Assembly (NCBI RefSeq): GCF_000021945.1
Contig: NC_011831.1
Coordinates: 1,935,353-1,999,352 of the forward strand
Length of the DNA stretch: 64,000 nucleotides
Origin: Chloroflexus aggregans DSM 9485
GTDB taxonomy: Bacteria; Chloroflexota; Chloroflexia; Chloroflexales; Chloroflexaceae
Direction: 5' to 3'
Position numbers and translations under genes: made by a program. Of this stretch, positions 6,026 through 20,477 are shown one piece after another (the stretch's first letter is position 1; each line of letters begins with the position of its first letter). The notes under the pieces are model-generated. The model saw nothing but the letters and a program-made list of their open reading frames with translations, searched no databases and had not been told where the DNA came from.

Positions 6026-8080
6026 CTATTTTATCCCGAACAGTGCTGCCTGCGCGGACAGATCGACCCGATAGATCGGCTGCAATGAGCTAATTAACGC
6101 GCGCAGTTCATCACGATGAAAACCGAACACATCAAGTGCGAGACGTCCGCCATCGCCACCGCGGCGCTGTCGTGTGTTGCTCTCTATTGCCACCCGATAC
6201 CGCTGACCGCGCATTGGTTCAATCTGCACACGCCACGGTCCGATGATTTCAACCGGGATCGACGCATCAACGCCGGGTAACCGATCAAACGCGATCACCA
6301 ATCGCTTTCCAGGGCCACTGTAGATCGCGCCATTCAAAGTCGGCCCCTGCAACCGTAGCAGCATTGCATGCTCAATGCCCGGTGGTGGATCAGCCGGGAT
6401 GATTTGCGAATCACGCAGAACATTACCAAACGACCCGTTCTGACCGCTACTCGGCGATGGATTACCACCATCCGATAAGATCGGTAACACCACATATCCG
6501 GCACGCACTAACGGCCATGCAGGGTCAAACAGGTCTTGCACCGATCCACTCGTCGCTTCGGCCCGCCCGTTCCACACCCGTACAAAGGTAAACGCATCGC
6601 GGATCTGTTCACCGCTCACCAGCCAATTAAACTCAACGAGTCGCCAGACAACCCGACTCGTCTGTGTTCCACCGGGTGGGCCGATCAATTCGGTCACGCT
6701 GAGCACGTGACCATCTTGCTCACCGATAGCCATCAGAACGGTAACCGGTTCCGCCTCATCAGGCGGTAGATCAACCGGACTAATACCACGAAAACTAACG
6801 ATGTAGGCCAACCGCTCACCGATGCGCTGCCGCCCCAACAAGCGCAGATCGGGTGCAGCAGCAGCCTGGTGCAGATAGTTCGGCACGATTGACCATGGGC
6901 CGGTTGTTCGGCGGGCGTGAAAAGCAACCTGCTGCTCGGTCGGATCAAGATCGGCGACTACTAACTCTGGCTCGTTGGGTAAGGCGCGTATCGGTAGATC
7001 GCCGTAGAGAGAAGGGGCATACGCCCCATCAATGGCATAATACAAACGGCGCAAACCATCACCCAACTGAAACTCATACGGCGCACCACCTTCGATGTGG
7101 CGTAATTGCAAGCGATGACGCGCCGGATTATCACGGTCGTGCCAGATTTCGGCATAGAGCGGAGCAACCGTGCGATTGTTGAAATACCAGATGGTCTGGT
7201 AACGGGCATGCCATACCGGGGGTCCTTCAGGTTCGGGAATGCCACCGTGCATGAGCGCTCGTGCTACCAATTCAGCAGCACTCACGGTTGGTTCGGCAGC
7301 ACCGGTCGCGATCACGGTAAACGGCTTCCTGAATAAGCCGGGCAGCACAATGACGGTAATCAACCCGACGAAGGTGAGCAGTTCGACCAGCGGTGCCAAT
7401 TGTCCTAGCCGCGTTCGGGGTGCTGTCGTTGCTTGCAGCAACCGTTTGAACTCGGCTGCCGGTAGCGGTGTCGCCTGAACCAACCGACGCAGCGCCGCTC
7501 GCAACGAGCGCATCGTTTCTTGCCATTCACGCTCGAAGATGCGGCAGTGGGGACACGTTTGAAGATGCTGCCGAACCTTCTCAAACATCATCAGATAGTG
7601 CGGCGGATCGAGGAAGGCACGGTGGATGACCTGGCATTCAGAACGGCTAACATCGGCAGAAAGGGTATGACCGATGGCAGGAGCCAACTGTCGTACTGCT
7701 TGTTCAAGGAGTGAGAGCGCTTCATCGGCTTCGAGGCCAACGATCCGTGCCAGACGTGTATGTTCAGCGCCTAACACGCTATACACCAGCACGACCATCC
7801 GTTGCGGGAGTGACAGAGCGCGGAGTGGGCCAAGGAGTGGTGTTGCCGGCGGCGCCGGACGGCGCGGCACCGGCTGCGTGAACATCGCCGTCGCCACCTG
7901 ATAAAGCCGCGTCAACAGCTCATCATCGTTCCACGTATTGGGCGGATGTGAACGCAAAGCAACCGCCCATTGCCGCAACAACCTGCGTGCTGCCCGTTCA
8001 TCAGGTGCTAAGACCAATGCAAAGCCGTAGAGTTCGTCACCCGTTTGAGTCAGCCACTGCGACAGTCGATTCGTTATCAT
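6026..8080 (-). CDS. Membrane protein: ECF-sigma-like domain fused to anti-sigma zinc domain and large extracytoplasmic domain
   Basis: 684 aa. Residues ~10-65 resemble sigma region 2 and ~85-135 resemble region 4 (PLRALSLPQRMVVLVY, then an HTH-like IVGLEADEALSLLEQAV). Next comes an anti-sigma ZAS/zf-HC2 signature, H172-x3-C176-x2-C179 with C149 as a candidate further ligand. One transmembrane helix lies at ~229-250, and ~430 residues beyond it have no domain I recognise. It overlaps the small upstream gene by 44 bp and lies downstream of moxR. Inference: a one-polypeptide sigma/anti-sigma relative sensing the cell envelope, or a degenerate derivative no longer able to bind RNA polymerase. 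Confidence 0.7.
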   Translation of the reverse strand: MITNRLSQWLTQTGDELYGFALVLAPDERAARRLLRQWAVALRSHPPNTWNDDELLTRLYQVATAMFTQPVPRRPAPPATPLLGPLRALSLPQRMVVLVYSVLGAEHTRLARIVGLEADEALSLLEQAVRQLAPAIGHTLSADVSRSECQVIHRAFLDPPHYLMMFEKVRQHLQTCPHCRIFEREWQETMRSLRAALRRLVQATPLPAAEFKRLLQATTAPRTRLGQLAPLVELLTFVGLITVIVLPGLFRKPFTVIATGAAEPTVSAAELVARALMHGGIPEPEGPPVWHARYQTIWYFNNRTVAPLYAEIWHDRDNPARHRLQLRHIEGGAPYEFQLGDGLRRLYYAIDGAYAPSLYGDLPIRALPNEPELVVADLDPTEQQVAFHARRTTGPWSIVPNYLHQAAAAPDLRLLGRQRIGERLAYIVSFRGISPVDLPPDEAEPVTVLMAIGEQDGHVLSVTELIGPPGGTQTSRVVWRLVEFNWLVSGEQIRDAFTFVRVWNGRAEATSGSVQDLFDPAWPLVRAGYVVLPILSDGGNPSPSSGQNGSFGNVLRDSQIIPADPPPGIEHAMLLRLQGPTLNGAIYSGPGKRLVIAFDRLPGVDASIPVEIIGPWRVQIEPMRGQRYRVAIESNTRQRRGGDGGRLALDVFGFHRDELRALISSLQPIYRVDLSAQAALFGIK

Positions 8081-8270
8081 AAGTATTCGCCGTCTGCATC
8101 ATTGCAGCATCGGTGCGCAACTGCTGTTGGAGACGCCACATTGTTTTGATCCTAGCCCGCTGCCATGCAGCACTCTTCGGGCCGGTCTCACGCAACAACA
8201 CGATCCGTTGCAAGGCGAGCCGCAAAACCTCTTTGCGACGATCACCCGCCTCGTTCGGCGTATCAGCCAT
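8037..8270 (-). CDS. Small hydrophilic helical protein, unknown function
   Basis: 77 aa, rich in Arg, Leu and Gln in its first 55 residues, predicted mostly helical, without membrane segment or Cys. A strong CCGGAGGT ribosome site stands 7 nt before the ATG, which argues that it is real. It sits 24 bp after moxR and its 3' end overlaps the sigma/anti-sigma-like gene by 44 bp, so the three are probably translated from one mRNA. I do not recognise a family. Confidence 0.65.
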   Translation of the reverse strand: MADTPNEAGDRRKEVLRLALQRIVLLRETGPKSAAWQRARIKTMWRLQQQLRTDAAMMQTANTYDNESTVAVADSNG

Positions 8271-8294: not shown

Positions 8295-9272
8295 TCAACC
8301 GGCAATTGCCCGCTCAAACCGACGGCCGGCTCGCGCTCCCGGCACCGGTACTGATGTGAGCACTTCTTCAATCACTGCCTGGGCGGTTACATTACGTACC
8401 CGCGCCGCCGGGCTAACAATCAGGCGATGGGCGAGCACCGGCATCGCCAGCGTCTTGATGTCGTCGGGGGCAACGTAATCACGCCCGTTGAGCGCAGCCC
8501 AGGCTTGGGCCGCACGATAGAGAGCTAACGCACCTCGGGTGCTGGCTCCTAGATACACATCCGGATGATTGCGCGTCGCCGTTGTAAGCGCCACAATGTA
8601 CTCGACGATAAGATCATCAACATGGACTTGCTTGATCGCCGCTTGGAGGGCCAACAGTTCGTCAATTTCAACGACCTTAGATAAAGTCTCTAGTGGATGA
8701 CCTTCCCTTTGCCGCTTGAGGATAGCAATCTCATCGAGACGGTCGGCATAACCGAGATGGACACGCAAGAGAAATCGGTCGAGTTGCGCTTCCGGCAACG
8801 GAAACGTTCCTTCGTATTCGATTGGGTTTTGCGTCGCCAACACGACAAACGGTTGCGGCAACGGATACGTAATGCCGTCCACAGTAATTTGCCGCTCCTC
8901 CATTGCCTCGAGCAAGGCCGATTGTGTCTTCGGCGTGGCCCGATTAATCTCATCGGCTAACACAATCTGGGCCATAATCGGGCCGGGCCGGAATTCAAAC
9001 TCACGTGTCTGTTGATTGAAAATCGATACACCGGTGACATCACTCGGCAGCAGATCGGGAGTACACTGAATACGCTTAAAGCTCGACCCGATTGAGCGGG
9101 CAATGCTCTTCGCTAACATCGTTTTACCGGTACCGGGAACATCTTCAATTAACACATGGCCGCGACAGAGCAACGCGACCAACACTAATTCGACGATCTG
9201 ACGTTTGCCGATAATCACCTGTTCGACATTCGTCACGATACGCGCAGCAAGTTGCTGAACATGCTCCAACAT
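8295..9272 (-). CDS. MoxR-family AAA+ ATPase
   Basis: 325 aa. Walker A is EDVPGTGKT (residues 43-51), Walker B is VLADEIN (D107, E108), and sensor-1 is in the VLATQNP segment. A C-terminal AAA lid follows. MoxR proteins are chaperone-like ATPases that usually act with a VWA-domain or DUF58 partner; none is encoded nearby, which is unusual. Instead it is followed by the small helical protein and the sigma/anti-sigma-like membrane protein. Ribosome site GAGGTG before the ATG at 9272. Confidence 0.92.
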
Positions 9273-19699: not shown

Positions 19700-20293
19700 T
19701 TACTCCACCAGCGAACGTAGTACATCGCGTAATTTCAACAAACCGAGCCGTAATCGCGTTTTGATCGTACCCAATGGCTCGCCAAGCTGTTCAGCAATTT
19801 CGCTTTGCGTCAAACCACCATAGTATGCCATTTCAATTGCCTGTCGTTGAGCTGGTGGGAGATCGGCCAGAGCTGCTCGTACCGTCTCACGTAACATGCG
19901 TTGTTCGAGAACGCTTTCGACACCGGCAGGTAACAATGTGCCAACATCGACTCCCGTCACCTCGCGACGCCGCACCCGTTCTCGTTTGCTACGCAAGGCA
20001 TCAATTGCGCGATGCCGACTTATTCCGATCAGCCAATGTACAACCAAACCGGCCTGCCGACGGAATCCACCTGCCGTTTGCCAAATGTTGTGAAACACGT
20101 CTTGCATCACTTCCTCGGCAGTCTGTCGGTCACCGGTGATCCGAAGAGCAATGGCATACACCAAAGCAGCGTAGCGATCGTACAGTTCACCCAACGCTGC
20201 TTCCTCCCGCTGCACAATCAAATCGATCAGAAACTCATCACTCAGATCGCGCAACCTACTCTCTGAAGGCTGTTCTAGAGGCATCGAATGCAA
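19700..20293 (-). CDS. ECF-family RNA polymerase sigma factor (SigK-like)
   Basis: 197 aa. Region 2 at ~25-95 (ALGELYDRYAALVYAIALRI, then TAEEVMQDVFHNIWQ) and region 4 at ~135-190 (LPPAQRQAIEMAYYGGLTQSEIAEQLGEPLGTIKTRLR, with a clear helix-turn-helix). It is paired with the RskA-type anti-sigma gene 4 bp downstream. The Tat-exported ferritin-like gene lies 184 bp upstream on the same strand, so it may be a target or part of the same regulon, by context only. Confidence 0.93.
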   Translation of the reverse strand: MHSMPLEQPSESRLRDLSDEFLIDLIVQREEAALGELYDRYAALVYAIALRITGDRQTAEEVMQDVFHNIWQTAGGFRRQAGLVVHWLIGISRHRAIDALRSKRERVRRREVTGVDVGTLLPAGVESVLEQRMLRETVRAALADLPPAQRQAIEMAYYGGLTQSEIAEQLGEPLGTIKTRLRLGLLKLRDVLRSLVE

Positions 20294-20477
20294 GACCTTC
20301 TCTTTAAGCGGACAATCGAGCTATATAGCCAGGCGAGCCTTGAACAAAAAAAGCGCTCGGTTTACTTATGGTAGCATCTTGTAACACTTTGGCAGCAGCA
20401 TTGAACAGACAAGGGAGCGCCGGACGGTCGAATATGCAAAGGCTGAACCGGCCGGCGCATCTTTGCTCAGAGAGCGT

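Follow-up and report, generated by a model that had tools for sequence, protein, structure and literature searches.

Does a sigma-factor-like domain that shares one polypeptide with an anti-sigma domain still direct transcription, or does it serve another purpose? The question is raised by a gene of Chloroflexus aggregans DSM 9485, found in a stretch of 64,000 nucleotides (contig NC_011831.1, positions 1,935,353 to 1,999,352; hereafter the window) of a genome that is a single contig of 4,684,931 bases. The gene (6026..8080 of the window, on the minus strand like the other features of its locus) encodes a 684-amino-acid (aa) membrane protein with a pseudo-sigma head, a zinc anti-sigma (ZAS) domain, a membrane helix and an extracytoplasmic domain. 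An earlier reading of the DNA letters (the sequence-only reading) had described these parts in one polypeptide, and the domain order was borne out by profiles, by a zinc motif conserved in 19/19 relatives and by hydropathy. It had also proposed that a functional sigma fragment is released from the protein. We tentatively favor a different view, namely that this is a transmembrane anti-sigma-type receptor carrying its own built-in sigma mimic, not a releasable sigma factor, and that it switches the availability of the ZAS domain.

Two alignments underlie the counts given here. The close-relative alignment contains 19 of the 31 loci from the same family, the Chloroflexaceae (30 genomes; genome G004 was not taken in), and the other 12 were excluded for near-duplication, contig-end truncation, masked stretches, breakage or long extra tails. 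To these 19, the wide set (37 rows in all) adds 18 of 22 further open reading frames (ORFs); it excludes L153, L154, L162 and L166, which are broken, cut, partial or ZAS only.

The head has the fold of sigma regions 2 and 4 over residues 6–138, with region-2-like helices at residues 6–70 (7871..8065) and a region-4-like helix-turn-helix at residues 84–138 (7667..7831). These regions lie below standard single-sequence detection in this protein. Pfam scanning of the 684-aa protein gave no sigma domain match, and NCBIfam matched residues 56–135, in the sigma-like part, to a PhyR-family model at E 0.081. Among the 19 relatives, the same PhyR-family model matches four, and Sigma70_r4_2 (Pfam) matches six, with a best E of 9.9e-5. 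With profiles the resemblance becomes clear, and it is supported by the fold. A profile of the first 145 residues found SigL (E 2.9e-4), SigH (3.1e-4), the RsbN-BldN complex 6dxo (1.8e-3) and PhyR (9cb6, E 0.013) in the PDB, and sigma factors or PhyR account for 17 of the 21 sequences listed at E values up to 10. In hhalign, the head profile matched a profile of eight extracytoplasmic function (ECF) sigma factors of the same genome at 95.7% (E 9.6e-9, 132 columns); region 2 alone reached 64.7% and region 4 alone 88.5%. Adding the 18 distant relatives, for 37 diverse rows, raised the match to 97.7% (E 1.6e-12). The controls stayed at or below 0.7% for 40 column shuffles and at or below 0.6% for the reversed profile and 11 unrelated decoy families, two of which are thin (one and three rows). 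The sigma-like similarity ascribed to the N-terminal residues by the sequence-only reading is thus upheld at 96–98% against the ECF sigma factors of the same genome, although overall identity to ECFs is about 14%. An hmmsearch with the head profile against 412 ORFs from loci of this genome also placed true ECF sigma factors on top (best 4.3e-6); these loci had been preselected by sigma matches, and therefore the claim rests on the PDB search and hhalign instead.

We then investigated the predicted structure. An AlphaFold2 (AF2) model of residues 1–230, built on four sequences, had a predicted local distance difference test (pLDDT) score of 70.2 and a predicted template modeling (pTM) score of 0.67. 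The eleven best Foldseek matches (E 0.017–0.1, probability 0.99–1.0) are all PhyR or ECF sigma chains. In VIA-align, the model was closest to anti-sigma-bound RpoE (5uxx_C, RpoE-NepR; Z 11.7, root-mean-square deviation (rmsd) 2.6 over 140 residues), followed by PhyR (4qic_A, PhyR-NepR; Z 11.3) and SigW-RsiW (5wuq_B; Z 11.2), Z-scores of a size that helical folds may attain without kinship, so that the sequence evidence carries the sigma claim. Rows of mycobacterial sigma factors bound to RNA polymerase (RNAP) that align across both domains had an rmsd of 28–29.

While the fold is retained, the residues expected of a working sigma factor are mostly gone. The hallmark positions considered here make the core-RNAP, -10 and -35 contacts in sigma-70 factors. 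They were mapped through the profile alignment and counted over the 37 wide-set rows against the eight ECF sigma factors of the same genome. In region 2.2, D/E33 is kept in 2/37 rows (7/8 ECFs) and Q36 in 3/37 (6/8), the Gln being mostly replaced by Arg, Lys or an aliphatic residue. In region 2.3, neither W58 nor N65 is kept in any of the 37 rows, compared with 8/8 and 6/8 ECFs, and the D69 that follows N65 is kept in 0/23 (6/8 ECFs). The recognition helix has lost K122 (1/37 vs 8/8), R127 (2/37 vs 6/8) and, to a lesser extent, R124 (8/37 vs 5/8); in the close relatives, the expected K, R and R occur in 0/19 at each site. The 684-aa protein itself has R33, R36, R58 and A65 in place of the canonical D/E, Q, W and N, and L122, L124 and Q127 instead of the recognition-helix Lys and Arg residues. 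Some scaffold positions are common to the head and the ECFs: A31 and R94 in 37/37 rows, L59 in 31/37, Y18 in 29/37, and L89 and A111 in 25/37 each. Judged by its sequence, the head is probably not a working sigma factor. Regions 2.1–2.2 are described as binding the clamp helices (PMC7406223), in agreement with the roles assigned to these positions. Anti-sigma contact positions were also considered as a discriminator between a mimic and a sigma factor, and were dropped because these surfaces partly overlap the RNAP/DNA contacts.

The ZAS domain spans residues 145–190 (7511..7648). Its H-x3-C-x2-C motif (H172, C176 and C179), together with an extra cysteine, C149, located 23 positions before the histidine, provides the predicted zinc ligands (7544..7636) and is invariant in all 19 aligned relatives. 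The zinc motif of RsrA-type ZAS proteins also contains H-x3-C-x2-C. In the wide set, C149 is retained in 27/37 rows and H172, C176 and C179 in 30/37 each. Family models recognize the domain at low scores: zf-HC2 (Pfam) gives 14.5 bits on the 684-aa protein, under its curated cut-off of 22.2, and matches 9/19 relatives at E up to 1 (best 2.3e-4), and all 19 members match the NCBIfam antisigmaE model with E values no higher than 1 (best 1.2e-4), the protein itself at 0.02, under the cut-off. A PDB search with the ZAS profile returned nothing (best E 0.098). One membrane helix follows the ZAS domain, at about residues 228–250 (7331..7399), the strongest hydrophobic stretch beginning near residue 228 by hydropathy.

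Evolutionary rates set the head apart from an ordinary sigma factor. Compared with six same-genus relatives (seven of the eight genus rows were used for within-genus rates), the 684-aa protein shows 51–59% identity in the head and 68–75% in the external part. Averaged over all pairs of the seven rows, identity is 56% in the first and 58% in the second sigma-like half, 63% in the ZAS domain, 80% in residues 255–505 and 56% in residues 506–684. As a rate control we used a conventional ECF sigma gene of the window (about 19703–20320, minus strand), which adjoins a gene for an anti-sigma-like membrane protein. This sigma factor shares 74–79% identity with six orthologues; for the neighboring anti-sigma protein the figure is 57–65%. 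The pattern is therefore inverted in the 684-aa protein, whose head evolves faster than its external domain. In four pairs, the ratio of nonsynonymous to synonymous substitution rates (dN/dS) was 0.15–0.31 in the first sigma-like half, 0.04–0.47 in the second, 0.02–0.14 in the ZAS domain (the lowest region in 2/4 pairs), 0.06–0.12 in residues 255–505 and 0.14–0.34 in residues 506–684. Purifying selection thus acts on all five regions (dN/dS 0.02–0.47), indicating that the gene is not decaying; with its relatives in the family, this establishes the ORF as a real gene. The proposed release of a functional sigma fragment is not supported, given the loss of the RNAP, -10 and -35 residues in most relatives and the lower conservation of the head.

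The extracytoplasmic region comprises about 430 residues (255–684; 6029..7318). Residues 255–505 are the best conserved part of the protein both within the genus and in comparison of the genus with others, and the second half, residues 506–684, is variable. Pfam and NCBIfam scans of the protein and its relatives assigned no family to this domain, a PDB search gave no convincing relative (best E 0.2), and profile comparison with DUF4367/LolA was not significant (0.8%, and 0.2–0.6% for residues 255–505). An AF2 model of the external part was too poor for use (pLDDT 39.5). Four ORFs of the same family (L034, L041, L042 and L049) carry an extra tail related to that of a third family (99.4%). In this third family of the order, relatives of about 1,050–1,120 aa have an extra C-terminal part of about 400 aa and occur as tandem pairs in L158 and L157. 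The extra tail of the long forms matches a LolA/DUF4367 set at 34%, which is a lead only.

Relatives of the 684-aa protein are present in 31/41 genomes of the family, G004 having only a C-terminal fragment. Some match, weak and partial ones included, exists in 50/82 genomes of the order. In a phylum sample of 301 genomes, in which scoring was limited to three candidates per genome, 62 had a match. Matches spanning most of the length come, in this sample, only from 18 genomes of the same genus or family and from G064 of the same order. G051, also of the order, matches over model positions 269–679, and the remaining phylum matches are short, mostly to the sigma-like or zinc part.

We then investigated the genes around the receptor. 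A gene for a 325-aa MoxR-family AAA+ ATPase (8295..9272; AAA_3 E 2.7e-66 and AAA_lid_2 E 7.8e-28 in Pfam) is followed by a gene for a 77-aa helical protein (8037..8270) and then by the 684-aa gene, the last two overlapping by 44 bases at the start of the 684-aa gene. The overlapping small gene and the preceding MoxR gene are thus arranged as the sequence-only reading had stated, and the neighborhood survey supported only part of the three-gene unit that it had proposed. At 23/31 family loci MoxR is found no more than 1.4 kb upstream and in the same orientation, which corresponds to 23/27 testable loci, the contigs at L028, L038, L049 and L050 being too short. It is absent at L036, L040, L041 and L044, which have at least 3.8 kb of upstream sequence, and is present at 8/8 loci of the genus. 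The 77-aa gene is found at only 16/31 family loci, and two genera in which MoxR and the receptor are neighbors yielded no copy of it. Of the three genes, MoxR and the receptor thus stay together more consistently, and the small protein also occurs independently of them. In another family of the order, at 5/7 loci (L147, L148, L149, L151 and L152), the gene immediately upstream of the receptor codes for an M66-like metallopeptidase that, judged by eye, starts with an export signal; Pfam matched the L151 protein to Peptidase_M66 at E 4.4e-8, and the others match that protein by tblastn, L147 with only 116 aa at a contig end.

The MoxR gene had also been said to lack its usual VWA/DUF58 partner. 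For DUF58 this holds: a genome-wide search found eight DUF58 matches and five MoxR genes, with one side-by-side MoxR-DUF58 pair near 258 kb, and the DUF58 match closest to this locus is more than 1 Mb away. For VWA it holds among the flanking genes scanned, a NAD kinase gene and a photolyase-like gene, which contain neither VWA nor DUF58; VWA was not searched genome-wide. Elsewhere in the same genome, outside the window (C1:2813232-2819513), there is a head-to-tail array of ECF-type sigma genes with a spacing of about 0.7 kb, giving eight region-2 and ten region-4 matches. The seven copies compared are 86–96% identical, a striking arrangement.

The 77-aa protein contains a near-invariant core (LxxxVLLRETGPKSAAWxRARxxTxWRL) in an alignment of all 16 copies from the family loci. 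Pfam assigned no family to the copy of the window. The family of this protein is found in 42/82 genomes of the order, as a small domain with the core RETGPKSAAWxRAR in varied contexts. The gene stands behind an aroB-like gene (by eye) in L230 and L232, without MoxR or the receptor, and behind a glycosyltransferase-4 gene (Pfam) in L216. In L226 the domain is fused N-terminally to an M20 peptidase (Pfam), and in L225 and L227–L229, from the same genus as L226, the motif occurs in long ORFs of similar appearance. The seven loci of the family with the M66-like peptidase also lack the 77-aa gene. A role as a dedicated partner of MoxR or of the receptor was rejected, since the protein occurs elsewhere without either.

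How could such a receptor work? If the head is a built-in mimic, it would keep the ECF fold and, without the RNAP and promoter residues, would not start transcription. The tethered ZAS domain may occupy the head in cis, by analogy with NepR, which occupies the sigma-like domain of PhyR. The external domain would sense a change, with the linked MoxR ATPase as a probable remodeler in Chloroflexaceae, and the signal would move the mimic on or off the ZAS domain, thereby determining whether the latter can hold a true ECF sigma factor encoded elsewhere. In its simplest version, the mimic would fill the ZAS domain until the signal or MoxR parts them, and the reverse sign is equally possible. The fuller proposal of a self-contained membrane partner switch, in which sensing and MoxR set the occupant of the ZAS domain, either the decoy or a genuine ECF sigma factor, is speculative, and we consider it rather unlikely as it stands.

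The contact between head and ZAS domain, the partner switch, its target sigma factor, the part played by MoxR and the signal are all inferred, and several observations weigh against a built-in mimic. H172, C176 and C179 are each absent in seven rows of the wide set and C149 in ten, and such loss of zinc ligands where the sigma-like head persists fits poorly with an obligate mimic-ZAS pair. Some class I anti-sigma contact positions are reported to overlap RNAP/DNA contacts (PMC7406223), so the same losses might also weaken ZAS binding. At position 122, 14/37 rows have Arg, a conservative swap for Lys, and some scaffold positions are poorly kept (P90 in 19/37 and L114 in 18/37). The pLDDT of the four-sequence AF2 model is 52–63 over residues 141–170, and Foldseek with this model gave no match at E 0.001 or better. 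The head profile did not match the seven near-identical tandem ECFs of the same genome (0.9% and 0.5%). Finally, in the family with the M66-like peptidase gene, MoxR is adjacent at 0/7 loci, five of which have more than 5 kb of upstream sequence.

The main rival is a vestigial head that has no sigma partner and has been reused for docking or as a scaffold, the main job of the protein being in the envelope and its cytoplasmic part recruiting MoxR or another machine. This is a serious possibility, if a doubtful one. It would account for the best within-genus conservation lying outside the cell, for divergent relatives that retain the external domain and the sigma-like head and lose zinc ligands, for the peptidase gene in front of the receptor at most loci of one family, and for the MoxR linkage within Chloroflexaceae. 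However, the invariance of C149, H172, C176 and C179 in the close relatives and the low dN/dS of the ZAS domain argue that the anti-sigma part is still under selection. It is improbable that the protein is a genuine sigma/anti-sigma fusion of the ECF52/IutY type, whose head is released by proteolysis or MoxR and directs transcription. The sigma fold is real, the domain order is as described for ECF48, ECF52 and ECF53 (PMC8999054), and IutY provides a precedent, being a fusion of this kind that Prc/RseP processing can free and turn active (PMC5411451). Against this stand the loss of the conserved region 2.2 Asp and Gln, of the region 2 Trp and Asn and of most recognition-helix Lys and Arg residues, and a head less conserved than the external domain. 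It is very improbable that helical sequences came to resemble sigma factors by chance alone. The missing Pfam sigma match, the low identity to ECFs and the unmatched tandem set speak for it, but the shuffled, reversed and decoy profiles reject it, the PDB search, unbiased toward sigma factors, was nevertheless dominated by them, and the fold matches extend across both domains.

Fused sigma/anti-sigma receptors are read in genomes as one-protein transcription switches. A Chloroflexales family whose sigma half is without its working residues, and whose zinc inhibitor half is preserved in close relatives, would bring sigma mimicry of the PhyR kind to the membrane, and would call for caution before the heads of such fusions are annotated as active sigma factors. 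The 684-aa protein is also a defined candidate client for a MoxR ATPase that has no adjacent DUF58 partner.

The sequence-only reading had suggested that the module could be new. A sigma domain, a zinc finger, one or more membrane helices and an extracytoplasmic part in one polypeptide are already described for ECF48, ECF52 and ECF53 (PMC8999054), and the 684-aa protein shares this domain order, for example with Streptomyces SCO4117 (PMC8999054, PMC5826349). In SCO4117 (ECF52), similarity is reported to be highest in the sigma and zinc-finger domains (86% in both, 74% in the carbohydrate module), TIGR02937 recognizes the sigma domain, and a knockout affects transcription (PMC5826349). The sigma domain of the 684-aa protein, in contrast, has degenerated, and conservation is higher in the external part. 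ECF52 is said to be confined to Actinobacteria, whereas this protein occurs in Chloroflexales, together with MoxR. IutY of Pseudomonas putida (ECF243), an experimentally studied fusion, likewise joins a sigma domain to a membrane anti-sigma part (PMC5411451, PMC8999054), and processing by Prc and RseP is reported to release and activate its sigma domain (PMC5411451). Its anti-sigma part is a cell-surface-signaling regulator with a periplasmic domain, for which the abstract describes no ZAS domain (PMC5411451). PhyR is described as having a correct ECF structure with degenerated RNAP and promoter regions, and titrates the anti-sigma factor NepR (PMC8103513). The head of the 684-aa protein is alike in both fold and degeneration, and PhyR is among its top fold matches. 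However, PhyR has a receiver domain, a family absent from the Pfam results for the 684-aa protein and its relatives, and binds NepR in trans, whereas the mimic is here covalently joined to a membrane ZAS domain. The RsiW/RsrA-type ZAS proteins have the same zinc motif but, unlike here, pair with a functional sigma factor that is a protein in its own right. With the MoxR-VWA pairs (RavA-ViaA and NorQ-NorD) the locus has a MoxR-type AAA+ ATPase in common, but this one adjoins a sigma-like/ZAS membrane protein, with no DUF58 nearby. In open-access titles and abstract openings, we found no description of this protein or of a ZAS receptor that includes a degenerate sigma head. The fusion architecture as such is already published, and what differs in Chloroflexales is the degenerate sigma head on a ZAS receptor.

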